Source of the DNA: an uncultured Bacteroidales bacterium
GTDB taxonomy: Bacteria > Bacteroidota > Bacteroidia > Bacteroidales > UBA932
DNA length: 64,000 nt
Assembly (NCBI GenBank): GCA_900316955.1
Contig: ONEX01000007.1
Span: forward strand, 62,001 to 126,000
Direction: 5' to 3'
This document shows, one piece after another, positions 50,739-62,661 of the stretch (within the stretch, counting starts at the first letter, position 1; each line of letters opens with the position of its first letter). The notes under the pieces are model-generated. The model did not search any database, had not been told where the DNA came from, and was given only the letters and a program-made list of their open reading frames with translations. Both the position numbers and the translations under genes were made by a program.

Positions 50739-51611
50739 TCAGTGGTTAAGGTTCTTCCAGTACGGAAGGAGTTTTTCCTGAAGATATGTAACTACTTCAG
50801 AAAACTGAAGGTCTGACTTACTCGTGATCTTTTTGATAAATGCGCGCCACCTTGTCTCCATCTGCGGATTGGTCCCGAAGTTGTCCCTGAAGAACATCGT
50901 GTCAGGGTCATAGGGCGTGTGCCTGTTTTCAAAAGTTCTTGCAATGGCTTCCTGCAATACATCGGGATCCAAATTCCGAGTCTTCAGTATCTGATACAGA
51001 TCATAATAATCCTTCATTCGACTGCTCTGATCTGCGAGGTCAACGACCGCATGCAGTTTCTCAGCAACGACGGTTTCTAGAGAATAAGCAAGGATGCTTG
51101 CTCTTGGAAGATGCTCAAGGAGAGCCGGGTAGTCAAGGTCTACGGGAGCCGGTGTCACAATGTCACCGAATCCGATATCCATCGTCAAGACCTGAGAAAC
51201 CGTATCCATTGATACAGGAATGCTCAATCTCACTCCGTGGTAGTCCTTTAGTTCTGATATGTTCTTAGATGTGATATGCTCTACATCAAATACTACAGCG
51301 TCCTCTTCGCAAGGGCAGGAACATATTTCCCGGAAGGCGGCAACGATTCTTTCGCCATCATTGCTGATATTATTACCAAGGAAATCTATGTCCAACGTAG
51401 GTCTTGCCGCAAAGCCTTCATGTGCGTACATCAAGGCTCCACCTTTCAGATAGAAATTCTGGCGATATCCAGATAGGGAAATCCTATAAATCAATCTTTC
51501 CTGGAAGTATCTAGTCAGGACCGTCTGGTAGTAGACGTCCTCATTCTTTGCAATGTTCAGAAGTTTGCTCCGGATCGATTTCCCGTAATTCTTAATAATG
51601 TCTTGGCTCAT
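50739..51611 (-). CDS. abiEii: AbiEii nucleotidyltransferase toxin
   Basis: A 290-residue protein. The nucleotidyltransferase active site is FYLKGGALMYAHEGFAARPTLDIDFLG (Gly-Gly, then Asp-x-Asp), and VAEKLHAVVDLADQSSRMKDYYDL is the conserved helical block that follows. AbiEii family members transfer nucleotides to tRNA or other targets and block growth in phage-infected cells. It is coupled by an ATGA overlap to the antitoxin. Confidence 0.88.
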   Translation of the reverse strand: MSQDIIKNYGKSIRSKLLNIAKNEDVYYQTVLTRYFQERLIYRISLSGYRQNFYLKGGALMYAHEGFAARPTLDIDFLGNNISNDGERIVAAFREICSCPCEEDAVVFDVEHITSKNISELKDYHGVRLSIPVSMDTVSQVLTMDIGFGDIVTPAPVDLDYPALLEHLPRASILAYSLETVVAEKLHAVVDLADQSSRMKDYYDLYQILKTRNLDPDVLQEAIARTFENRHTPYDPDTMFFRDNFGTNPQMETRWRAFIKKITSKSDLQFSEVVTYLQEKLLPYWKNLNH

Positions 51612-52171
51612 AGTTTGACTTCCAGATATTTTTCCAGGATGGCGGACACCCTGAGAGTCCGCGCATAGTCCATCAGTCTCGAGATATTCCTTTCCGGGCG
51701 CTCCAGGTAATTGTTGATTATCTCAGAACACACATCCATTCCCACTTTGTTTCTGAACTTTACGGCGTCGCATACGCATCTCTCCACGTCATAAACATTG
51801 ACTGAAAAACCGTCAATAGTCATCTGTGATACGCCGACATTCAGGACCTTGTCGGTGTAATAATGAATCTCCATTTGCGGAAAAGCAGGAACAGTTATCT
51901 TTTTGTTTCTTCTGACAGCGACATGAAAGGCTTGGGGCATAGATGTGGTCAGCCTGTGAATACTCCAGGCAGACCATAGACACAGGATGCCGTCCGGAAC
52001 GATGGAATTAATGTCTATCATATTACCGCTCAGTTGCTCAGAGGTGGCATAGACGCCGCGACGAACCTGAATAAGTTCACCTTGCCTAGCCTTTTCAAGC
52101 ATCTTGTAGTACTCTGTCCGTCCGTGTTTTTTCACGGAGGAAGATGAAATAAACTGTTCTCTATCGCTCAT
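51608..52171 (-). CDS. abiEi: AbiEi-type antitoxin/autorepressor
   Basis: A 187-residue protein starting MSDREQFISSS at 52171. The N-terminus has a winged-helix (EYYKMLEKARQGELIQVRRGVYAT) and the C-terminal domain has the AbiEi pattern VNVYDVERCVCDAVKFRNK. AbiEi binds inverted repeats in its own promoter and counteracts AbiEii without direct contact in the known system. A candidate operator lies upstream at 52190-52233. Confidence 0.8.
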   Translation of the reverse strand: MSDREQFISSSSVKKHGRTEYYKMLEKARQGELIQVRRGVYATSEQLSGNMIDINSIVPDGILCLWSAWSIHRLTTSMPQAFHVAVRRNKKITVPAFPQMEIHYYTDKVLNVGVSQMTIDGFSVNVYDVERCVCDAVKFRNKVGMDVCSEIINNYLERPERNISRLMDYARTLRVSAILEKYLEVKL

Positions 52172-52189
52172 TTCGCTTTTGGTAATTCT

Positions 52190-52233
52190 GTACAAATATA
52201 CCACAAAAATCATAATTTGTATCAAGTTTGTAC
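52190..52233 (-). promoter_or_regulatory. AbiE promoter and candidate operator
   Basis: GTACAAA (52190-52196) and TTTGTAC (52227-52233) form an inverted repeat separated by 30 bp. The -7 box TATATTTG (minus strand, 52193-52200) overlaps the left arm, so a protein bound to both arms would block transcription. AbiEi-type autorepression fits. Confidence 0.55.
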
Positions 52234-52239
52234 GAATAA

Positions 52240-52665
52240 ATGGGAATAAACCAGTCTGGCATCCGGGCAAAGACCGCCGCCGAGGAGGTCAACCGCCTGC
52301 GGAACTGGAAACGCACGAAGGAAAGGTTCGAGGAGAACAAGGCCCGCATCAAGAAGGATTGCCTCGCGGTCCTGTCAGGAATGTCGGCCTTCTCCTGGGA
52401 GAAGTATTCTGCTGCGCTGGAAGCCAAAGGATACAAGGTCAAGCTGAAAATGGATGCTTCGGTGGCGGTCCGTGGATATACGATTCAGAGCGGGAACTCT
52501 GTCTATAAGTCATCCGTCATTGGTCGTGACTTGACGCCATCCCGAATCCAGGAGACCTGGAAGAAGATGCGTCCGGAGAACAGATACGGACAGATGACTC
52601 CATCGGAGCGCGTCGCATTTGCCACGTCCGATGAAGGGAAAGATTATCTCTTCCCTTGGGAATAA
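52240..52665 (+). pseudogene. C-terminal fragment of a mobilisation relaxase
   Basis: The 141-residue frame reads ALEAKGYKVKLKMDASVAVRGYTIQSGNS and SSVIGRDLTPSRIQETW, the typical C-terminal block of Bacteroidetes MobB-type relaxases. The N-terminal nuclease domain with its catalytic Tyr and His triad is absent, and the apparent start at 52240 falls in the AbiE control region. This looks like the end of a relaxase gene truncated when the AbiE unit was inserted or the element decayed. The family assignment is by eye. Confidence 0.55.
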
Positions 52666-52982
52666 CCTTGAATGGGAAGAGATATGAAACGAAAGCTTCC
52701 GGGAAAGCCGTAAAGGCCTTTTATGAAGAGAGCAGAGCGATCGAGTGGACCCATTCTCCCGAGGAGACTGGCAACATCTTTCGAACAGCATTTCTTCTGT
52801 TCGTCGGGCAAGTCGATGCCGCCACCTCCTTCGCACAAAACTGCGGAGGCGGAGGATCCGCCCCCGACCCCAACTGGGATCGTGACAAGAACGAGGATGA
52901 CATTCTCTGGGCACACCGTTGCTTCCGCAAGGCACGGGAGATGGTTACTACGCCGGTAGTGAGGTGGGGTAGAAGGCGATGA
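52656..52982 (+). CDS. Mobilisable-element accessory protein, unknown function
   Basis: A 108-residue frame overlapping the relaxase fragment by 10 bp; the start (TTG at 52656) is uncertain. LNGKRYETKASGKAVKAFYEES is followed by a Gly-rich turn (QNCGGGGSAPDP) and a charged C-terminus (WDRDKNEDDILWAHRCFRKA). Small proteins with this Gly-rich and W-G-x-D-x-x-E-D-D pattern often follow relaxases in Bacteroidetes mobilisable transposons. The function is unknown. Confidence 0.45.
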   Translation: MGITLNGKRYETKASGKAVKAFYEESRAIEWTHSPEETGNIFRTAFLLFVGQVDAATSFAQNCGGGGSAPDPNWDRDKNEDDILWAHRCFRKAREMVTTPVVRWGRRR

Positions 52983-53167: not shown

Positions 53168-53443
53168 CAATCCCACGGGAAAGCATTTACATACCGAAAG
53201 CGTTAGCTTTATTCCGTGTCGGCGAATCTCGACAATTCATAATTGATACAGGAATAATGTACGACGCTTGCGCGGCTATATTATGGGCTTCGGCTCACAC
53301 TATAGCAGTGCGAGCCGAATTGTACTTATTCGTATCAAAGGGAGTCGAGACCCGGCCGACACAGTAAGATGCTAAGGAGGCTCGCACTTTCGCGTATTTG
53401 AGCGAACCAATTGCCTGTCGGGCCCGGGCGCAGAATAAATCAG
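53168..53443 (+). ncRNA. Long structured 5' leader of the type III mod gene
   Basis: Nested complementary arms are visible. Outer stem: 53216-53223 GTGTCGGC and 53227-53233 TCTCGAC pair with 53355-53362 GCCGACAC and 53344-53350 GTCGAGA. Middle stem: 53243-53262 (TTGATAC, GAATAA, GTAC) pairs with 53322-53338 (GTAC, TTATTC, GTATCAA). Inner hairpin: GGCTC.CAC (53292-53300) pairs with GTG.GAGCC (53308-53316). In addition, AGTGCGAGCC (53307-53316) is perfectly complementary to GGCTCGCACT (53379-53388), so a second fold or pseudoknot is possible close to the start codon at 53444. I do not recognise a known riboswitch class. It could be a regulatory leader or a stand-alone RNA. Confidence 0.65.
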
Positions 53444-55369
53444 ATGGACAATCTGCACCTATACCACGAGCTGGAGGCCCTTCTTCGGAACGACTCCAAG
53501 TACTGCATGGACGATGGCACACTCATCAAAGCAAAAATCGTTGAAGATGCACTCAACCTGCAGCCTGACCTCCTCAAATACATATTGTCGCATGCTGAAT
53601 TGAAGGATAACTTCTTTAGCGAAGTTTCAGAAACGCTCGTCTTCGACAAGGTAAAGTTCCAACAGTTCGTGATTAACAAGTCTTTCCTTCCAGACAGTTA
53701 CACCGCATACAAGAATAAGATTGGTCTAACTGACCAGGAAGGGCGTTTTATCAGTGAGAGTCGGGAGGTTGTCTTGGCATGGCCTTATAAGGATTGTATG
53801 CTTGAGGGCGGTCAGACGAAAGAGGACACCAAAAGAAATGAAGTCTTCTGGAGCGAGACCTTGGCTCCGGATGAGATTACTCGACTGACAGAACCTAAGG
53901 CTCTTACGGGGTTCCAGCTGTACGACAAAAAAGGTTCGCATAAAGTCAAGCACCTTGCTCCTACAGACAACCTTCTGATTAAGGGCAACAACCTCCTTGC
54001 ATTGTATTCTTTGAAAGAGCGTTTTGCCGGAAAGGTGAAAATGATCTATATCGACCCGCCGTACTACTTTGCCAAAAATAAGGCCGGGGATTCGTTCTGC
54101 TATAATTCTAATTTCAAGCTCAGCACTTGGCTGGTCTTTATGAGGGATCGTCTCCGCGTCGCCAATGAGCTGCTTTCTAATGATGGCGTCCTGCTCTGCC
54201 ACATTAAAGAAGACGCTATCCATTGGCTTAAAGTATTGATGGAAGAGTTATTCGGCAAAGAGAACTTTGTCGAAACATTCATCTGGCGTAATACTGATAA
54301 CCCTGATTCTTTATCCAATAAATCACGCTCTGCTGTTGAGTATATCATTTGTTTTGAGAAACGGAAAGATGCCTCTCGTGCATATATTGGTAAAGATACC
54401 GAGAACGGTGACGCGCCTATCCTTCATACTGGCAACAATATTCATGAGTTAGTTTTCCCTAAAGGGTCTATTCACTTTAATATCCCGGATGGGCATATTG
54501 ATCCAGGCAAGCCTAATAGAGTTGAAATTATCACTCCATTTGACATCAAAGATGGACTGAACAAACAGAAAGTGACCCTTAAGGGAGAGTTTACATGGTC
54601 TCAAGATACATTAAATGATAACTGGAAAGCTGGTTGTTATTTTCTGGTGAAATCAAACCAATTCTCTGTCAGGGTACAGATGCCATCTGGTAAATCTATG
54701 GCTCCAGAAAAATATTTCGACGACCAATATCTTTCTAAAGCTATTGGCGTAGGCACAAATGAAGATGCAAGTACTCACTTGAGAAATATGGGAATCAACT
54801 TCTCGTATTCTAAGCCTGAGAGCGTTGTTGCATACTTCGTCAGAGCCGTCACTAAGGAAGATGATTGGGTTATGGATTTCTTCGTTGGAAGTGGGACAAC
54901 AGCAGCCGTGGCAATGAAGATGAAACGCCGTTTCATAGCAGTCGACCAGATGGATTACATCGGGACTGAGACACTGAAACGACTCAGAAAAGTTATTGAA
55001 GGTGAGCAGGGAGGTATTTCTTCTTCCGTTGGCTGGCAAGGCGGTGGCTCTTTTGTCTATTGCGAACTCGCGAAATCCAACGCCCTCTTTATGGACGAGA
55101 TTAATGCCGCTAAGAAGGAAGACGCCCTGAAAGATATTTGGAAGCGAATGCAGGAGACGGGGAACCTTAATTATAAGATTAATCCTGCCGACATAACTGA
55201 GTCCGCCGAAGATTTCAATGCATTAAGTCTGGCAGACAAGAAACGGTTCCTCATTGAGTGCCTTGACAAGAATCTGCTATACATACCTGTTAGCGATATT
55301 GACAGCGAGGAGTATTCAATTGACGCAGAAGACAAGCGCCTGACTCAAGAGTTTTACAACAAGATTTAA
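53444..55369 (+). CDS. mod: Type III restriction-modification DNA methyltransferase (Mod)
   Basis: A 641-residue N6-adenine methyltransferase of the beta class: the catalytic DPPYYF (204-209) comes before the AdoMet-binding FFVGSGTT (479-486). The variable middle region (about 230-440) is the presumed target-recognition domain. In type III systems two Mod subunits recognise an asymmetric 5-6 bp site and methylate one strand. The gene is followed by res after 5 bp. The start at 53444 was chosen because the Mod N-terminus (MDNLHLYHELEALL) begins there. Its codon use is AT-rich compared with the PUL. Confidence 0.92.
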   Translation: MDNLHLYHELEALLRNDSKYCMDDGTLIKAKIVEDALNLQPDLLKYILSHAELKDNFFSEVSETLVFDKVKFQQFVINKSFLPDSYTAYKNKIGLTDQEGRFISESREVVLAWPYKDCMLEGGQTKEDTKRNEVFWSETLAPDEITRLTEPKALTGFQLYDKKGSHKVKHLAPTDNLLIKGNNLLALYSLKERFAGKVKMIYIDPPYYFAKNKAGDSFCYNSNFKLSTWLVFMRDRLRVANELLSNDGVLLCHIKEDAIHWLKVLMEELFGKENFVETFIWRNTDNPDSLSNKSRSAVEYIICFEKRKDASRAYIGKDTENGDAPILHTGNNIHELVFPKGSIHFNIPDGHIDPGKPNRVEIITPFDIKDGLNKQKVTLKGEFTWSQDTLNDNWKAGCYFLVKSNQFSVRVQMPSGKSMAPEKYFDDQYLSKAIGVGTNEDASTHLRNMGINFSYSKPESVVAYFVRAVTKEDDWVMDFFVGSGTTAAVAMKMKRRFIAVDQMDYIGTETLKRLRKVIEGEQGGISSSVGWQGGGSFVYCELAKSNALFMDEINAAKKEDALKDIWKRMQETGNLNYKINPADITESAEDFNALSLADKKRFLIECLDKNLLYIPVSDIDSEEYSIDAEDKRLTQEFYNKI

Positions 55370-55374
55370 ACGCT

Positions 55375-58300
55375 ATGGCAAATCTTCAAGATAAACTTGA
55401 GAGCGAGTTTGGTCGACGCTATATTTCACGTATAGAGTTGCCGAATTACTTCGAGACGGGACTGAGCCAGTCTCGTCCCTTGCGCCCTTATCAGGAAGAA
55501 TGCTTCCGCTACTTCCTTTGCTACATGGACCCAGAGAATGATTTTGACGGGAAGCAAACGAGACCGCATCTTCTATTTCATATGGCCACTGGATCAGGAA
55601 AGACCCTGGTTATGGCCGGTGCAATGCTTTACCTCTACGAGCAAGGCTATCGCAACTTTCTTTTCTTTGTTGATAGCACGAACATTGTTGAGAAAACAAA
55701 AGACAATTTTCTCAATCCCTCATCATCGAAGTACCTGTTTGCCCAACAGGTATTCGTCAACGGAAATCGTGTCAATATAAAGAAAGTTGACAATTTCCAG
55801 GGAGCTGATACTGAGAGCATAAATATATGCCTTTCCACAATACAGGGACTTCATTCTGACCTTAATTCCGAGAAAGAGAACTCCGTCACTTATGAGGATT
55901 TTTCCGACCAACCGGTCGTTCTTATTTCTGACGAAGCGCATCACATGAATGCGGCCACCAAGCGCGGAGGAGTCAGTGAAGAGGAAGAGCAGCACACTAA
56001 GGACTGGGAATCCACGGTGATGCGCATTTTCAACAAAGAGAATGGCTCATTCCCCAATATCTTGCTTGACTTTACAGCAACGGCAGATCTTACCGACCCG
56101 GCAATTGCACAGAAATATGAGGACAAAGTCATATTTGACTATCCACTTAAGAAATTCAGAGAAGACCTGTATTCTAAAGATGTAGAGGTCGTTGTCAGCG
56201 ACCTTGAACCGCTTGAAATGGCTCTTCAGGCAATGATTCTGAGTCAGTATAAGCGTAAGCTGTTTGCGGACATCAAGCAGAATATCAAGCCAGTCGTACT
56301 CCTCAAATCGAAGACAATTAACGCCAACAAGGATATATACACGCAGTTTATACAGGCTGTATCTGCGCTAAAAGCATCTGACATTGACAAGATTCGAGGG
56401 CGGGCAAAAGATGACCTTGCGGCAGCCTTTACCTATTTCGACAAGCATCACATCACCGCTGCCAACCTGATTCTTGAGCTTAAGGAAGAATTCGCGGAAG
56501 AACGGCTACTGCTTATAGATGGAAACAATATTTCGCCGGAAAAACAGTTATTGCTTAACTCTCTTGAGAATTCGGACAATGGGATTCGTGCCATCTTTGC
56601 GGTTGATATGCTAAACGAGGGGTGGGACGTTCTCAATTTGTATGACATAGTCCGACTGTATAACACCCGTGACGCGGTTGGAAATAAGCCCGGTAAAACC
56701 ACGATGCAAGAGGCACAGCTTATTGGTCGCGGCGCAAGGTATATGCCTTTCAGCGACCCTAATAACCCTGCTTTGCCTTTCGATAAGCGGAAATATGACG
56801 GCGATGCCAGCAATCCTTTCCGCGCAATAGAGAAGTTGCACTATCATAGCGCATACAATCCCCGTTACATACAGGAACTTCATATTGCCCTTGTTGAAAC
56901 CGGTATCATTCCGAATACCAAAAAGCAGCTAAACCTGGCATTAAAGGCCAATTTCAAGACAAGCCGATTGTATCAGAAGGGATACGTGTTCGTAAACAAA
57001 CGCCTCCCTCTTTCCGAGGCTGAGGACGACGGCACCATCGGTAAGGAAATTCTTAACAAGAGTTTTAGCGTATCTGTTCATACCGGACAAATGCATACCA
57101 GTCAGGTATTATCTGACAACGGAACCTCGGCTGCCATAACAGTTAAAACCATACCGATTAAGTTTAAGGAAATTGATCACCACGTAGTTCGTGCTGCGAT
57201 GAATTGTTTTTCATCGTTCCACTTTGACAAACTTAAGGCTCTTTATCCTCAACTGAAATCAAGTAAGGACTTCATTAAGAGCGATAGTTACCTGGGTAAT
57301 CTAAGCATTAGGGTAAGTGGGAGCAAGTCCACTCTTGCAGAGTGCTCGCAATCTGAAAAGTTGATGATTGCTAAGGCGGTTTTTAAGGAAATTGAGCCTT
57401 TGCTCCTGTCTCGTGGCAAATCTTTTAAAGGCAGTACAGAGTTTAAACCTTTCCCCATCAAAGATCAGTTCCGTAATGCTATTCAGCTCAATGTGACAAT
57501 TAACGAAGGAGGTGACCAGGAGTTCGGTGTGTCTATGAAGGACACCACGAATGTGAACTATAAGCTGGACATTTCAACCGTTGATTGGTACGCTTACGAC
57601 GACAACTTCGGTACGTCCGAAGAAAAGGCGCTGGTCAAGTGGATTGAAGGCATTATGCCCAAACTCGAAGAAAAATACGAAGAAATCTATCTTGTCCGAA
57701 ACGAGAAAGACGTCAAGATCTTCAGCTTCGATACCGGCCAGGTCTTTGAACCGGATTTTGTGCTCTTCTTGCGAGTCAAAGGAACGACAGACGTTTACGA
57801 TAACCTGCAATTGTTTATCGAGCCTAAAGGTGACGGCCTTTTGAAACAAGATAAGTGGAAGAACGATTTCCTGAAGCAGATCAAATCCATGGCCGACATC
57901 AGGTGGTGTACACAAACCGATCAATTCTTTGTCTGGGGGGTGCCCTTCTTCAACGAGAAAGCCAAAAAGGAATTCGAGGATGCATTTGAGGATGAAGTGC
58001 TTAACTATACGCCATCCGCTCCCTCAGCAAAGGTCGTCGCTTTCGTAATCGTAGCCTCATCTGAAGTTGCGGAAGAGAAGAGATATAAACAATTCTTGCC
58101 AGTGTATTCCGTCCGTGCCGCCTGCGGCTCATTCGAGGACAGCCAGACCATTCCAGAGGAAGAAGCCGAAGGATGGGTTGACATTACAGGAACTGGAGTG
58201 ACGGCAAACAAAAACATGTTCCTTGTCCACGCTATTGGCAATTCAATGGCCCCCCGGATCAACGATGGCGATTTATGCGTTTTCGAGTTATATGGAGCCG

Positions 58301-58548
58301 AAACTGGAGGCTCTCGTGAAGGAGAAATTGTCTTGACACAGCGAATTGACAAAGATGATGACTACGGTTGCTCATACACTATCAAGAAATACTATAGTGA
58401 AAAAGTCCAGAATAAAGATGGAACCTGGCATCACACCAAGATCCAGTTACAGTCACTGAACCCGGATTACAAAGCGATTGACGTACCTCCCGAGGAGGCT
58501 CCGGCACTGCGTACAATCGGTATTTTACGTACAGTATTGTCGTTTTAA
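55375..58548 (+). CDS. res: Type III restriction endonuclease (Res) fused to a LexA/UmuD-like S24 domain
   Basis: A 1057-residue protein. SF2 helicase motifs: MATGSGKT (70-77), DEAH (186-189), DFTATADLTDP, and LNEGWDV plus QLIGRGARY for motifs V and VI. The PD-(D/E)xK nuclease has Asp794 (EPDFVLF), Glu816 and Lys818 (IEPKG). The ordinary Res would end near residue 870. Here a further domain from about 895 carries S24 peptidase marks: VRAACGSFED with a Cys917-Gly918 scissile pair as in UmuD, GNSMAPRINDGDLCVFE with Ser957, and a Lys in YTIKKYY (1004 or 1005). In LexA and UmuD this dyad self-cleaves on RecA filaments. The fusion suggests that DNA damage could release or inactivate the restriction subunit. 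This is inferred. Confidence 0.9.
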   Translation: MANLQDKLESEFGRRYISRIELPNYFETGLSQSRPLRPYQEECFRYFLCYMDPENDFDGKQTRPHLLFHMATGSGKTLVMAGAMLYLYEQGYRNFLFFVDSTNIVEKTKDNFLNPSSSKYLFAQQVFVNGNRVNIKKVDNFQGADTESINICLSTIQGLHSDLNSEKENSVTYEDFSDQPVVLISDEAHHMNAATKRGGVSEEEEQHTKDWESTVMRIFNKENGSFPNILLDFTATADLTDPAIAQKYEDKVIFDYPLKKFREDLYSKDVEVVVSDLEPLEMALQAMILSQYKRKLFADIKQNIKPVVLLKSKTINANKDIYTQFIQAVSALKASDIDKIRGRAKDDLAAAFTYFDKHHITAANLILELKEEFAEERLLLIDGNNISPEKQLLLNSLENSDNGIRAIFAVDMLNEGWDVLNLYDIVRLYNTRDAVGNKPGKTTMQEAQLIGRGARYMPFSDPNNPALPFDKRKYDGDASNPFRAIEKLHYHSAYNPRYIQELHIALVETGIIPNTKKQLNLALKANFKTSRLYQKGYVFVNKRLPLSEAEDDGTIGKEILNKSFSVSVHTGQMHTSQVLSDNGTSAAITVKTIPIKFKEIDHHVVRAAMNCFSSFHFDKLKALYPQLKSSKDFIKSDSYLGNLSIRVSGSKSTLAECSQSEKLMIAKAVFKEIEPLLLSRGKSFKGSTEFKPFPIKDQFRNAIQLNVTINEGGDQEFGVSMKDTTNVNYKLDISTVDWYAYDDNFGTSEEKALVKWIEGIMPKLEEKYEEIYLVRNEKDVKIFSFDTGQVFEPDFVLFLRVKGTTDVYDNLQLFIEPKGDGLLKQDKWKNDFLKQIKSMADIRWCTQTDQFFVWGVPFFNEKAKKEFEDAFEDEVLNYTPSAPSAKVVAFVIVASSEVAEEKRYKQFLPVYSVRAACGSFEDSQTIPEEEAEGWVDITGTGVTANKNMFLVHAIGNSMAPRINDGDLCVFELYGAETGGSREGEIVLTQRIDKDDDYGCSYTIKKYYSEKVQNKDGTWHHTKIQLQSLNPDYKAIDVPPEEAPALRTIGILRTVLSF

Positions 58549-58598: not shown

Positions 58599-58970
58599 AT
58601 GACCCCGGAAGAACACCGCCAGGTCCGCAGAATCATTCTGCACAATAGAATCGGTTGCATCGTCGCAAAGATGTCCGAGCTTTTCCGTATTTCCCTTACA
58701 GAAGCCTTGGATGTGTTCTATAGAAGCGACACCTGCCGCCGGTTCCATGATGAGAAGACTGGGCTGTATCTTTATGGGAATCTGTATATCATCGACGAGT
58801 TGGAGATAGAACTGCTGGGAGCGAAAGGAGATAGTGAACTCCGGAGTATTCTATTCCAATCCTTCAGCACTGACGAGCAGATGTCTGAAGTGGAAAAGTT
58901 CAGGCGATTCCTAAAGGGTGGAATCTCTTTCCTTGATCCTCAACCTGCGGCATTCGTTCGCGGTTTATAA
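58599..58970 (+). CDS. Small DUF3791-like protein in the defence island
   Basis: A 123-residue acidic, helical protein: HRQVRRIILHNRIGCIVAKMSELF, then SLTEALDVFYRSDTCRRFHDEKTGLYLYGNLYIIDELEIEL. The middle block (an 'ALDVFY..DT...' helix followed by 'GLYLYGN.YI.DEL') resembles DUF3791-type small proteins often found near defence and toxin genes. The match is weak. It lies 50 bp after res and 135 bp before rloA and may belong to either unit. Confidence 0.5.
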   Translation: MTPEEHRQVRRIILHNRIGCIVAKMSELFRISLTEALDVFYRSDTCRRFHDEKTGLYLYGNLYIIDELEIELLGAKGDSELRSILFQSFSTDEQMSEVEKFRRFLKGGISFLDPQPAAFVRGL

Positions 58971-59105
58971 TCCGCCGATTCTCATCGTTTTCTGCTTAAA
59001 TCGGCAGAATATAACACAAATTTGACGCAATATTGAGAGATTTTCTCAAAACTCTTGCGTTTTTCACCAAAAAACGTTTTCTTTGCTAAAAAGAAAGGAT
59101 CGCTT

Positions 59106-60314
59106 ATGCTTATTAATTTCACCGTAGGAAACTTTCTGTCGTTCCGCGATAAGAAAACATTAAGCCTGGAGGCTTCTTCCATTAAAGATGCTGGCAGCCA
59201 GATCATAGAGGTTGGGAAACTCCAGCTTCTACCTTCTGCCGCCTTGTACGGAGCCAATTCCAGCGGGAAAAGCAACTTTCTCCACGCATTAGGAGCATTC
59301 TCAGCGATCGTCAATTCGTCATCTTCAAGAAGCTCTATCGCAAGACTGCCGGTCTTGCCCTTCCTTCTTGACAATGATAGCGAAAAAGAGCCTTGTTTCT
59401 TCGAGATTGAAGTGATCACCCACGCTGCCAATCATTACCGTTATGGATTTGAATGCACGCAGACTTCAATCACGAAGGAATGGCTATATAAGATTAATAG
59501 CCGTTCGGAAAAGTGTCTTTTCATTCGTGAAGGAGACGAGATAGGTGTCACTTCCGCTTTTGCTGAAGGGAAAGGACTGGAAGAGAGGACAAGGTCCAAT
59601 GCTTTGTTCCTTTCCATCTGTGATTCTTTCAATGGCCCTATCGCAAAAGAATTGGTTAAGAGTATCGTCATACCTCCTATCCCCAATAATCCCCAGGATC
59701 TCATTGATGCCCAAAGGCAATTCCTACAAGTTGCCAAAGAAGCGTATTCCGATGAGATCAATCAGATTTTCAGAAAATTAGATTTTGGTTTTACTTCGTT
59801 TGAGATTCCTGATTCAGAAGCTGAAATCAGAGATGTTAAAGCCTGGACAACACACAATGTCTATGACAAGAATGGTGAAATCATTGGTAGCCGCAGATTC
59901 CCGATGAGGACTTCAGAATCAGCAGGAACGAATCGACTGTTTGATCTTGTTTACTTGATTGTAAATGCCCTGAAAGACGGAAGTCCTTTGATCATTGACG
60001 AACTGGACCGCGCGCTCCATCCGCTGATTACCAAATACATCATCGAACTCTTCAATAGTGCGAAGACCAATCCGAATGGAGCACAGTTGATCTTTACGAC
60101 ACACGATACCAATCTATTGAGTTCCAAGATATTCCGTCGGGACCAGATTTGGTTCGTCGAGAAAGACAAGACCGAGTCTTCGGATCTCTATTGCCTTGCG
60201 GAGTTCAAGGATGCAGAGGGCGTTAAGGTGCGCAATGACCGCAGTTTCGAAAAGGATTATATCCAGGGCCGATACGGTGCCATCCCGTATTTGAACTATG
60301 ATTGGGTAGATTGA
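59106..60314 (+). CDS. rloA: RloA/AbiLi-like AAA ATPase
   Basis: A 402-residue ABC-type ATPase of the RloA/OLD group: LINFTVGNFLSFRDKKTLSLEAS at the N-terminus, Walker A GANSSGKS (49-56), a signature-like RRFPMRTSESAGTNRLFDLV (Ser-Ala-Gly-Thr), Walker B PLIIDELDRALHP (Asp298-Glu299) and a TTHDTNLLSS His loop. Such ATPases sense phage infection and switch on a partner nuclease. The partner RloB begins 2 bp after the stop. The start at 59106 was chosen because the fold begins there. Confidence 0.88.
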   Translation: MLINFTVGNFLSFRDKKTLSLEASSIKDAGSQIIEVGKLQLLPSAALYGANSSGKSNFLHALGAFSAIVNSSSSRSSIARLPVLPFLLDNDSEKEPCFFEIEVITHAANHYRYGFECTQTSITKEWLYKINSRSEKCLFIREGDEIGVTSAFAEGKGLEERTRSNALFLSICDSFNGPIAKELVKSIVIPPIPNNPQDLIDAQRQFLQVAKEAYSDEINQIFRKLDFGFTSFEIPDSEAEIRDVKAWTTHNVYDKNGEIIGSRRFPMRTSESAGTNRLFDLVYLIVNALKDGSPLIIDELDRALHPLITKYIIELFNSAKTNPNGAQLIFTTHDTNLLSSKIFRRDQIWFVEKDKTESSDLYCLAEFKDAEGVKVRNDRSFEKDYIQGRYGAIPYLNYDWVD

Positions 60315-60315
60315 T

Positions 60316-61020
60316 ATGGGAAAGGCAATATCCGGGAAGGCAATCCGTGAAATGCGGGAGAGGGAGCGTAAAGCTCACCGTCTTGAGAAACGAATCAAGG
60401 TGGGAACGAGGCTTACGCACCTCAATTATCTGATCGTATGCGAAGGCGAACAGACGGAGCCAAATTACTTCAAGGCATTAGTTAAAGGAAGAAACTCGCA
60501 AGTCTTGACTGCCGTCGTAGCGGGTGAAGGGGCTAGCACAAAGTCTCTGATAGACATTGCCTTGAAGCAGCGTTCATCTTGTGATATCCACTTCGATGTG
60601 GTGTGGGCGGTTTTTGATAAAGATGAGTTCCGGGATTTTAATGAGGCTATCGCCTATGCTGTGAGCAACGGCGTCAATCCGGCCTGGTCCAACGAATCCT
60701 TCGAGTTGTGGTACTATCTGCATTTTCAGTTCCTGGACACCCAGAACTCCCGGCAACAGTATATTGAAATGCTTACCCGTGAAATTCGAAAAGTGTATCC
60801 CGAATTCGAGTACCAAAAGAATGACAAAGGGATGTATGAATTGCTGCAGAGGATTGGAAATCAGGAGCAGGCAATCAAGAATGCAAAGGCCCTTGAGGCG
60901 CGATATGAAGACGAAGATTATGCCTCCCACAAACCTTGTACAACAGTCTATAAACTGGTCGAAGAGTTAAACAAGCCGGAAGAGGTAATTGCCCGGCTTA
61001 ACCGGCAAAGCTGCCCTTAA
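60316..61020 (+). CDS. rloB: RloB/AbiLii-like Toprim-type effector
   Basis: A 234-residue protein. After a basic N-terminus (REMRERERKAHRLEKRIK) it has LIVCEGEQTEPNYFKAL and VVWAVFDKDEFRDFNEA, the Glu and Asp-x-Asp of a Toprim fold as in RloB. The C-terminal Trp/Tyr-rich part (NESFELWYYLHF) is also typical of RloB. RloAB is related to the AbiL abortive-infection system and functionally resembles ATPase-Toprim pairs such as PARIS. The nuclease target is not readable. Confidence 0.88.
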   Translation: MGKAISGKAIREMRERERKAHRLEKRIKVGTRLTHLNYLIVCEGEQTEPNYFKALVKGRNSQVLTAVVAGEGASTKSLIDIALKQRSSCDIHFDVVWAVFDKDEFRDFNEAIAYAVSNGVNPAWSNESFELWYYLHFQFLDTQNSRQQYIEMLTREIRKVYPEFEYQKNDKGMYELLQRIGNQEQAIKNAKALEARYEDEDYASHKPCTTVYKLVEELNKPEEVIARLNRQSCP

Positions 61021-61116: not shown

Positions 61117-61261
61117 AATTACCCCAAGATACTCAATCTTACTGCGGTTTACCAAGTGTCACAAATATAATATAGATTGATTATCAATTATATAAGTTGT
61201 AATCAAGCAGTAATCCGTGCCCCTATCCGGTATTGAATGTTACCTAGATGTTTGCCAAATG

Positions 61262-61292
61262 TTTGCCAAGTCGGAAGATGTTGTTATCTTTG
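61262..61292 (+). promoter_or_regulatory. Integrase promoter
   Basis: TTTG (61262-61265) and TATCTTTG (61285-61292) are 19 bp apart, a canonical Bacteroidetes promoter. The integrase ATG follows at 61315. The stretch 61117-61261 is AT-rich with no gene. Confidence 0.7.
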
Positions 61293-61314
61293 CGGTGAAC
61301 ATAAGGGAAACGCT

Positions 61315-62661
61315 ATGACAATTGCCTTTCAGATAAGGACTACGAAGTCCGCCAAGTCCGAAGAAGAAGTACCCGTTTACATCCGTCTTGTTGATGGTCG
61401 TGAATGGCTGTTCAGGAATCGAACCCAGATTCTAGTTCGCCCGGATTTCTGGGATCCCAAAAACGAAGGGATAAAGAAGCGGGTAGTATGCTCCGATGAG
61501 GACAGGCAGAAGGTAGATGATGAGATCGAGAAACTGAGGACCTATGTCCGTAAAGCCTATACGGAAGACCACGACAGAGGGAAGATAAAGAAGGGCTGGC
61601 TGGAGAAGACCCTTCAGGATTACTATGCCGGCAAGGAACGTGGGCCCAAGCGCCGCAAGAAGAATGAGGCTTCCTTGGAAAAACTGTTTGACAAGTTCCT
61701 TGAAGGCCGTGATCCACAGATATCCAGGACCAAGCATTACCATGTCTTGAAGCGGACCCTTCTCCGTTATGAGGAATATGTCCGGCTTTCCCAGCCCCGC
61801 CAGTCTAAATACGTGTTTGATGTCAAGGCAATCACCACAGAGGATCTGAACGATATCTATGATTATATCGTCAATGAGCACCAGCTCGTCAAGGACTACC
61901 CCGGAATTCTAGAAGCATATCCGGAGACCCGCAAGATACAGGAGCGGGGTGGAAATACGGTAACCGGAATCATCAAGAAACTACGTGCCTTCTTCAACTG
62001 GTGCGAAAAGGAAGGTTTCCTGAAAAAGAATCCCTTCATCGGTTTCGAGAAAGGGGAAGGTGAACAATACGGAACGCCCATCTATTTTACTAAAGACGAA
62101 CTGAAACAGATCTATGCCGCCGACTTTTCCGACAATCCGTCATTGGAAGCACAACGGGATATCTTCGTATTCCAGTGCAATATCGGATGTCGCGTTGGAG
62201 ATATGATGCGTTTGACCAAGCGTGATGTCATCAACGGGTCCATTGAGTATATCCCCAACAAGACCATCAAGGAGAACGCAAAGACTGTCGTCGTTCCGCT
62301 GAACTCCATGGCAAAGGCTATCCTAGAAAAGTACAAAGACCTGCCCGGAGAACGGCTCCTTCCATTCATAGCCAGCCAGAATTACAACTACGCCATAAAG
62401 GACATCGTCAAGAAAGCCGGCATAACCCGGCTCGTAACCACCCTTGATCCTTTAACCCGAAAGGAAGTGAAGCGCCCGATCTATGAAGTCGCCAGCAGCC
62501 ACATGGCCCGCCGCACTTTTATCGGCAACATCTACAAACAAGTCAAGGACCAGCACCTGGTTTCCTCCCTCACCGGCCATTCCGACAACTCCCGCGCCTT
62601 TGTCCGCTACCGCAATATCGACATCGACATGAAACAGGAACTGGTGAATATTTTGGACTGA
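61315..62661 (+). CDS. Tyrosine site-specific recombinase (integrase)
   Basis: A 448-residue tyrosine recombinase. An arm-binding N-terminus (TIAFQIRTTKSAKSEEEVPV) and a SAM-like core-binding domain are followed by the catalytic domain: Arg in NIGCRVGDMM, His-x-x-Arg in SSHMARRTFIGNIYKQ, His in SLTGHSDNSRAF and the nucleophile Tyr in FVRYRNIDID. The start at 61315 was chosen after the promoter; the upstream in-frame codons overlap it. It belongs to Bacteroidetes integrative elements. It lies 200 bp from the tRNA fragment, as usual for int genes next to their att site. Confidence 0.92.
   Translation: MTIAFQIRTTKSAKSEEEVPVYIRLVDGREWLFRNRTQILVRPDFWDPKNEGIKKRVVCSDEDRQKVDDEIEKLRTYVRKAYTEDHDRGKIKKGWLEKTLQDYYAGKERGPKRRKKNEASLEKLFDKFLEGRDPQISRTKHYHVLKRTLLRYEEYVRLSQPRQSKYVFDVKAITTEDLNDIYDYIVNEHQLVKDYPGILEAYPETRKIQERGGNTVTGIIKKLRAFFNWCEKEGFLKKNPFIGFEKGEGEQYGTPIYFTKDELKQIYAADFSDNPSLEAQRDIFVFQCNIGCRVGDMMRLTKRDVINGSIEYIPNKTIKENAKTVVVPLNSMAKAILEKYKDLPGERLLPFIASQNYNYAIKDIVKKAGITRLVTTLDPLTRKEVKRPIYEVASSHMARRTFIGNIYKQVKDQHLVSSLTGHSDNSRAFVRYRNIDIDMKQELVNILD

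Follow-up and report, generated by a model that had tools for sequence, protein, structure and literature searches.

Organization of the res-S24 gene

The window analyzed here, a 64,000-nucleotide stretch from an uncultured Bacteroidales bacterium of the UBA932 lineage (assembly GCA_900316955.1, contig ONEX01000007.1, positions 62,001 to 126,000), carries a type III restriction gene, here called res-S24, whose product ends in an S24 peptidase domain of the LexA/UmuD type (Table 1). An earlier note, made from the sequence alone, had proposed this combination, and profile searches bear it out; PADLOC REase_III matches residues 17-875 (E = 2.3e-130) and Pfam Peptidase_S24 (PF00717) matches residues 910-1040 (E = 1.8e-9; 37.7 bits, cut-off 23.3). 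The reading frame is uninterrupted, with an ATG start and 1057 codons of protein.

The larger, N-terminal part of the protein contains a Pfam ResIII match at residues 36-237 (E = 1.1e-30). Among 36 aligned relatives its GSGKT motif (73-77) and DEAH-type box (D186-E187-x-H189) are nearly invariant, and the PD-(D/E)XK residues P793-D794, E816, and K818 are invariant. By sequence this body is thus a Res-type SF2 helicase with a C-terminal PD-(D/E)XK nuclease, the arrangement of type III Res subunits such as EcoP15I, which likewise have mod immediately upstream; the window protein differs from these in its additional C-terminal S24 domain. A search of PDB sequences with the body at 1e-3 found no relative. 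The PDB structures matched by the full-length model are SF2 helicases and HsdR, with EcoP15I absent among the best 50 structural matches listed; since the pTM of this model is only 0.58, no claim is made about how the tail packs against the body.

The S24 domain is an add-on: the REase_III profile ends at residue 875 and untailed relatives end thereabouts: their alignments stop at query residues 817-878, with at most 57 further residues (broken or contig-cut open reading frames, ORFs, aside). The predicted local confidence (pLDDT) falls below 50 at residues 870-888 in a model of the tail and at 882-888 in the full-length model, and the segment from about 876 to 888 is probably a flexible linker between the two parts.

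Table 1. Positions in the window of the mod and res-S24 genes and of the parts and putative catalytic residues of the Res-S24 protein
Feature	Position	Strand	Basis
mod, type III DNA methyltransferase subunit	53444..55369	+	Pfam, PADLOC, sequence
res-S24 (1057 aa), type III restriction subunit ending in an S24 peptidase domain	55375..58548	+	ORF, Pfam, PADLOC
Res body (residues 17-875), SF2 helicase and PD-(D/E)XK nuclease	55423..57999	+	PADLOC REase_III, Pfam ResIII, invariant columns
Probable linker (residues ~876-888)	58000..58038	+	Low pLDDT
S24 peptidase tail (residues ~889-1057)	58039..58545	+	Pfam PF00717, confident model from ~889, Foldseek LexA/CI
Putative scissile pair Cys917-Gly918	58123..58128	+	Aligned with UmuD Cys-Gly; [A/C]-G in 47/48 tails
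Putative catalytic Ser957	58243..58245	+	UmuD alignment; Ser in 47/48 tails
Putative catalytic Lys1004	58384..58386	+	UmuD' alignment; Lys in 48/48 tails

The C-terminal tail is a distant S24 domain

The Peptidase_S24 score is above the cut-off in all six further type III tails scanned. Searched singly against PDB sequences, the window tail retrieves no S24 entry, its one match being a signal peptidase at 0.022; when ten tails are combined in a profile (alignment A1), UmuD (3.2e-5), UmuD' (1.2e-4), and also LexA are retrieved. In these profile alignments C917-G918 lies over the Cys-Gly of UmuD, S957 over its Ser, and K1004 over the Lys in the FTVK of UmuD', residues which are the scissile pair and the catalytic residues of UmuD. 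The top UmuD entry, 8gmt, is an engineered mutant bound to RecA and has Ala at the position aligned with K1004. The positions given in the earlier note are correct, as GNSMAPRINDGD begins at residue 955, which makes the Ser 957, and TIKKYY begins at 1002, which makes its first Lys 1004.

The AlphaFold model of the tail, made from ten sequences, is of moderate confidence (pLDDT 78.6) and is confident from about residue 889. When it was compared with PDB structures by Foldseek, the fold check that the earlier note had itself named as able to refute its reading, ranks 1-26 were LexA and lambda CI (E from 2.0e-5; identities 16-23%), with target TM scores of 0.64-0.72 against isolated LexA/CI C-terminal domains; UmuD is absent among the best 50 PDB structural matches listed. 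Taken together, the profile matches and the model, moderate as its confidence is, indicate that the tail has the LexA/UmuD fold and is a distant branch of the S24 family, and by alignment it has the Ser-Lys dyad and [A/C]-G bond of that family. It is like UmuD, LexA, and lambda CI in its fold, its Ser-Lys pair, and an [A/C]-G bond lying N-terminal to the Ser, but the Pfam scan of Res-S24 finds no helix-turn-helix of the LexA/CI repressor kind, and its N-terminal partner is instead a helicase-nuclease. The spacing also differs, at 40 residues (Cys-Ser) and 47 residues (Ser-Lys) in the window tail and about 36 and 37, respectively, in UmuD.

One part of the earlier proposal does not hold, namely that self-cleavage would cut the enzyme away from its own nuclease. 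The putative scissile bond at 917-918 lies about 100 residues C-terminal to the last nuclease residue (the PD-(D/E)XK residues span 794-818), so autolysis would remove no more than the S24 domain, and helicase and nuclease would stay connected.

Conservation of the putative cleavage residues

Forty-eight tails on six kinds of enzyme body were compared, a set that includes near copies (L003/L004/L005/L008 and L126/L127), the contig-cut L140, the frame-split L143, and the partial L100. For L159-L164 the start of the tail was set by the AAG motif, and versions bounded by the profile give the same residues. The [A/C]-G pair is present in 47 of the 48 tails, the Ser in 47, and the Lys in all 48; the sole exception is L100, which is without the front of the domain. 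Homologs thus retain these residues, whose loss was another of the three refutations named in the earlier note, and its statement that the catalytic residues appear intact in both halves of the protein agrees with this and with the conservation of the helicase and nuclease motifs. The pair is Cys-Gly in 10 of 10 type III tails, Ala-Gly in the type I, IIG, IV, and SNF2 tails, and either of the two in Schlafen tails. The residue before it (P2) is Ala in 46 of 48 tails, where UmuD has Gln, and the body would therefore end after the predicted cut in Ala-Ala (30 tails), Ala-Cys (16), or Thr-Ala (1). Other residues common to the tails are G83, R85, and D98 (window-tail numbering). Since the catalytic set is kept in 47 of 48 tails, the alignment suggests selection for cleavage and not merely for the fold.

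Type III relatives and exchange of the tail

With the whole protein as query, genome contigs yielded 125 loci, of which the best 80 were considered; one search pattern was derived from the tail, so these numbers are not an estimate of prevalence. Nine of the 80 (L001-L005, L008, L009, L017, and L033) carry the S24 tail in frame. They come from different assemblies, all of them metagenome-assembled or uncultured genomes, and as the tails of L003, L004, L005, and L008 are near-identical the nine loci represent roughly six lineages. L006 is cut by the contig end and its tail is missing, no verdict is possible for L038 and L047, the tail of L007 is of a different and unrelated kind, and the remaining loci of the 80 are untailed.

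A tree of the enzyme bodies, made by a quick method, has 47 rows (the window and L001-L047 without L047, which is too short; L048-L080 were not included). It places the tailed enzymes within one supported clade of 13 that also includes L006, L007, and the untailed L010, and it requires three changes of tail state when L006 is left out of the count. Identity between L017 and L033 is 54% in the helicase, 44% in the middle, and 48% in the nuclease, but their tails are 84% identical. The window and L001 proteins are 93-94% identical over residues 150-870 and 72% identical in the tail; per 60-codon block, their nucleotide identity is 71-93% ahead of residue 961 and drops to 65% and 50% in the blocks beyond. 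For the window and L007 proteins, identity is 67-84% over the body, while that of their tails is 12%. A simple reading of these sequence comparisons is that recombination has occurred repeatedly at the 3'-end of res and has exchanged the tail between enzymes.

The L007 protein (L007:10602-11198) is a type III Res close to that of the window with a different, non-S24 C-terminal domain. Weak relatives of that domain (E 4e-7 to 3e-4) are found in 4 of 198 genomes (loci L149-L152); in the three of these loci scanned for families they end two DUF2357-PDDEXK_7 proteins (L149 and L150) and L152, which is weakly LlaJI-like, below the cut-off. It may be a second exchangeable tail.

Related tails on other defense enzymes

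Whole-genome searches with tail profiles show that relatives of the tail also cap other enzymes, with the non-type-III tails matched at 1e-24 or better and 29-46% identical to the window tail where aligned. In the phylum search the next match after the tails is an ordinary helix-turn-helix S24 repressor, at 9e-9. Matches occur in 10 of 393 genomes in the order of the window, its own genome included (profile A1, 1e-12), and 19 of 395 in its phylum, Bacteroidota, own genome and S24 repressor counted (profile A2, 1e-8). With phyla deduced from organism names, there are matches in 4 of 398 genomes of Pseudomonadota (the phylum of Psittacicella), 5 of 149 of Actinomycetota (Corynebacterium), and 1 of 151 of Chloroflexota (the Anaerolineales genome), the last an HsdR-like fragment at a contig start; the 299 genomes of Bacillota (Tepidanaerobacter) gave none, in a search that had no positive control. 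Judged by sequence, then, tail relatives cap several classes of defense enzyme, and they do so in three or more phyla besides Bacteroidota.

The bearers, typed by Pfam, PADLOC, or similarity to a typed member, are two sorts of Schlafen-group-3 helicase, some of which have a GIY-YIG nuclease at the N-terminus; SauUSI-like type IV enzymes composed of a PLD nuclease, helicase, and DUF3427 (L102, L126-L128, L138, and L139); two sorts of type I HsdR, including L161; type IIG/DrmMI-like methyltransferases (L159 and L160); and a DISARM-neighboring SNF2 helicase that resembles HmaA (L163). As in the window, the tail follows the enzyme. In L126 (PADLOC mREase_IV, 2.1e-245) the tail match begins at residue 978, beyond the end of the type IV profile at 950; in L161 it begins at 1043, and the type I profile reaches only to 1012. 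The Pfam S24 scores of L102 (23.2 bits) and L161 (23.3 bits) are below or at the cut-off of 23.3, and L126, L162, and L163 are unlisted at the thresholds used; the assignment of these five rests on the tail profile. Neighboring genes fit the class of three bearers: the L161 HsdR-S24 gene (L169) is flanked by an HsdS-like gene and a partial match to MTase_I, the SNF2-S24 gene (L168) has DrmD and DrmMI next to it, and the type IIG-S24 gene (L167) has DpdE- and DruE-like helicases.

None of the tail-profile matches is a whole stand-alone copy of the tail; L100 and L140 are partial, and L129 and the Halomonas copy are split. Both split loci are Schlafen-helicase/S24 genes, one with an in-frame stop inside the helicase part (L129:4793-6979) and the other with a frame change close to where the helicase meets the tail (L143:3950-6438); these may be sequencing errors or real inactivations. 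Near untailed relatives, at the loci examined, no separate S24 gene was detected among ORFs of at least 60 aa (tail profile, E 1e-3). A phage or plasmid origin of the tail was considered and rejected, as there is no match among phage records and only one Halomonas replicon among plasmid records; viral contigs searched with two single tails as queries gave no confirmed tail.

In a tree of the tails a very long root branch leads to UmuD and an S24 repressor. The type III tails form no group apart from those of the Schlafen-A and type I enzymes, and the Schlafen-B and type IV tails group together (95/90). As 16 of the 34 inner branches are weak, no direction of transfer is claimed.

The mod-res operon and its surroundings

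The gene that ends 5 bases upstream of res-S24 encodes a type III DNA methyltransferase (Pfam N6_N4_Mtase 7.7e-33 and TypeIII_RM_meth 9.7e-20; PADLOC MTase_III 3.7e-157), and so the two form a type III restriction-modification (mod-res) operon. The mod ORF was listed from a TTG at 53411, and the in-frame ATG at 53444 is the more likely start. Mod-like sequence lies directly 5' of res in 8 of 8 tailed relatives with upstream DNA; the ninth, L033, begins inside res. When genes of the window were sought in 12 relatives, only Mod recurred beside tailed res, and the other neighbors sought were accordingly rejected as parts of the system; an RloA-like match is present in L004 and L007.

Just 5' of mod, at 53185-53440, the window has strong predicted RNA structure (-97 kcal/mol, z -5.8, equaled by no shuffle). 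Among the loci examined only L001 shares this stretch (95% over 307 bases), and it matches no Rfam family at the gathering score and has no second copy in the genome; it could be a regulatory leader RNA.

Several other defense genes lie nearby. Upstream, on the minus strand, there is an AbiEi/AbiEii toxin-antitoxin pair (50739-52270), and AbiE-like genes appear by eye downstream of the Halomonas locus L143 as well. Downstream of the operon are a 123-aa ORF between res-S24 and RloA (58599-58970) that resembles the PADLOC candidate PDC-M13C (1.4e-8), an RloA-like AAA ATPase and RloB that match AbiLi/AbiLii profiles (59055-61020), and, after these defense genes, a phage-integrase-family recombinase recognized by Pfam (61237-62661). 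The stretch from AbiE to the recombinase may be a mobile defense island.

Possible function of the S24 tail

Autocleavage of LexA-like proteins exposes degrons for Clp and other proteases (PMC7101444; PMC10584840), and the known basis of EcoKI restriction alleviation is ClpXP degradation of HsdR (PMC4231737; PMC11109961). By analogy with these two processes, the tail is judged most likely to be a damage-triggered off-switch, through which Res would carry out restriction alleviation in cis, a reading to which we give somewhat less than an even chance. DNA damage, most likely in the form of RecA filaments on single-stranded DNA, would cause S957 and K1004 to cut the chain after C917. The S24 domain would be released, and the helicase-nuclease body would remain whole, its loose C-terminal segment now terminating in Ala-Ala-Cys (in most relatives, Ala-Ala). 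Such an exposed end could act as a ClpXP tag, like those on fragments of LexA-like proteins; LexA's own fragment ends in Ala-Ala. The enzyme would then be removed or disarmed while repair and recombination yield self DNA with unprotected sites. Sequence and model show the architecture, the residues, the fold, their conservation, and the exchange of the tail; its cleavage, RecA as the trigger, and what becomes of the body are inferred.

The host genome has, by Pfam profile, one S24 gene besides the tail and no helix-turn-helix S24 repressor. That gene (contig C12, 35479-35829; L122, L142) is UmuD-like, has an Ala-Gly site, and lies beside a putative umuC gene. With such a pair present, damage-triggered S24 cleavage is plausible in the host cell and probably operates there.

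Several points weigh against the off-switch. Type IV enzymes cut modified DNA, and no Schlafen-group helicase is known to spare methylated self DNA; a need to protect unmodified self sites therefore does not account for all of the bearers. The P1 residue in the window is Cys, whereas classic ClpX tags have Ala. Both published Bacteroidetes SOS motifs are unmatched between position 52900 and the mod start: CTAA-N5-TTAG at up to one mismatch, which in the whole window has 4 matches against 7.4 expected and so no excess, and GGA-N5-TCC, a short motif that is over-represented in the window (76 against 29.5). SOS control of mod-res transcription is not supported. The outcome proposed for Res-S24 is like that of EcoKI alleviation, in which the R subunit is removed when self DNA is at risk, but the work on EcoKI describes no self-cleaving tail, leaves the degron unidentified (PMC4231737; PMC11109961), and makes alleviation independent of the SOS response (PMC11109961), and the authors of PMC4231737 deem alleviation specific to type I enzymes with translocating motors.

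The main rival is that cleavage turns the enzyme on. The tail would restrain it, and self-cleavage induced by damage, as in a phage attack, would free a more active or less fastidious nuclease as a last resort. UmuD, the nearest solved relative by sequence, is itself activated by cleavage; the body would be whole after the cut, with a linker that looks flexible, and for the type IV and Schlafen-group bearers such a switch would make better sense than a safeguard for unmodified self DNA. On the other hand, most of the Res relatives found are untailed, so such enzymes do not generally need a tail to hold them back, and it can be argued, from principle and not from data, that type I and III enzymes have to attack incoming DNA immediately and cannot wait for a damage signal to build up. 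We regard activation as unlikely, though well worth keeping in mind. Somewhat less probable still is self-cleavage with no role in damage, whether constitutive or dimerization-driven processing that sets the half-life of the enzyme or a response to another signal. The residues that the tails share beyond the catalytic set might mean that the trigger differs, and IrvR, a LexA-like protein, autocleaves without RecA, which counts against the off-switch too; yet the catalytic layout of the tail is UmuD/LexA-like, and RecA stimulation is the family rule, to which PMC7101444 calls IrvR an exception.

The tail might also serve only for dimerization or docking, with cleavage dispensable. The S24 domains of LexA and CI do dimerize, and UmuD' stays on as a structural subunit after cleavage, but the scissile pair, Ser, and Lys are all kept in 47 of 48 tails although identity to the window tail falls to 29%, and a mere scaffold should have lost some of them somewhere; we think this quite improbable. 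An assembly artifact or a meaningless chance fusion might be suspected from the provenance of the tailed type III loci, none of which is from outside metagenome-assembled or uncultured genomes. The in-frame tail nevertheless recurs in nine such loci from different assemblies and on other enzyme classes, in some cases on long contigs (4.1 Mb for L128 and 2.6 Mb for L124), and so many separate loci in effect exclude such an origin.

Relation to known systems and significance

No paper describing an S24 domain fused to a restriction enzyme was found in searches of the openly licensed literature, a weak sign of novelty; domain-architecture databases may already list such fusions. The tailed type IV enzymes share the PLD-helicase-DUF3427 layout of SauUSI but differ from it at the C-terminus, as SauUSI ends with DUF3427, and "S24" is absent from the text of PMC3874153. 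Neither "S24" nor "LexA" occurs in the text of the two DUF3427 papers found, nor in a 2025 review of restriction biology (PMC12707154). Both component families are well known, and what seems new is their union and its spread over unrelated defense enzymes.

It has long been asked how bacteria, while repairing DNA, spare their own chromosome from restriction nucleases, and PMC4231737 raises the question of why other restriction classes show no alleviation. If the off-switch is real, a damage-sensor tail on type I, III, and IV enzymes would be a direct and testable answer for those bearers, and it would tie immunity to the SOS response at the level of protein. More broadly, and tentatively, since we think it a little less probable than the off-switch itself, one exchangeable S24 tail may place type I, IIG/DISARM-like, III, and IV enzymes and Schlafen-group-3 helicases under direct post-translational control by DNA damage, as a general immunity regulator built into the effector protein and not acting on its gene. 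As one defined domain, the tail also lends itself to a comparison of its effect between unrelated nucleases.

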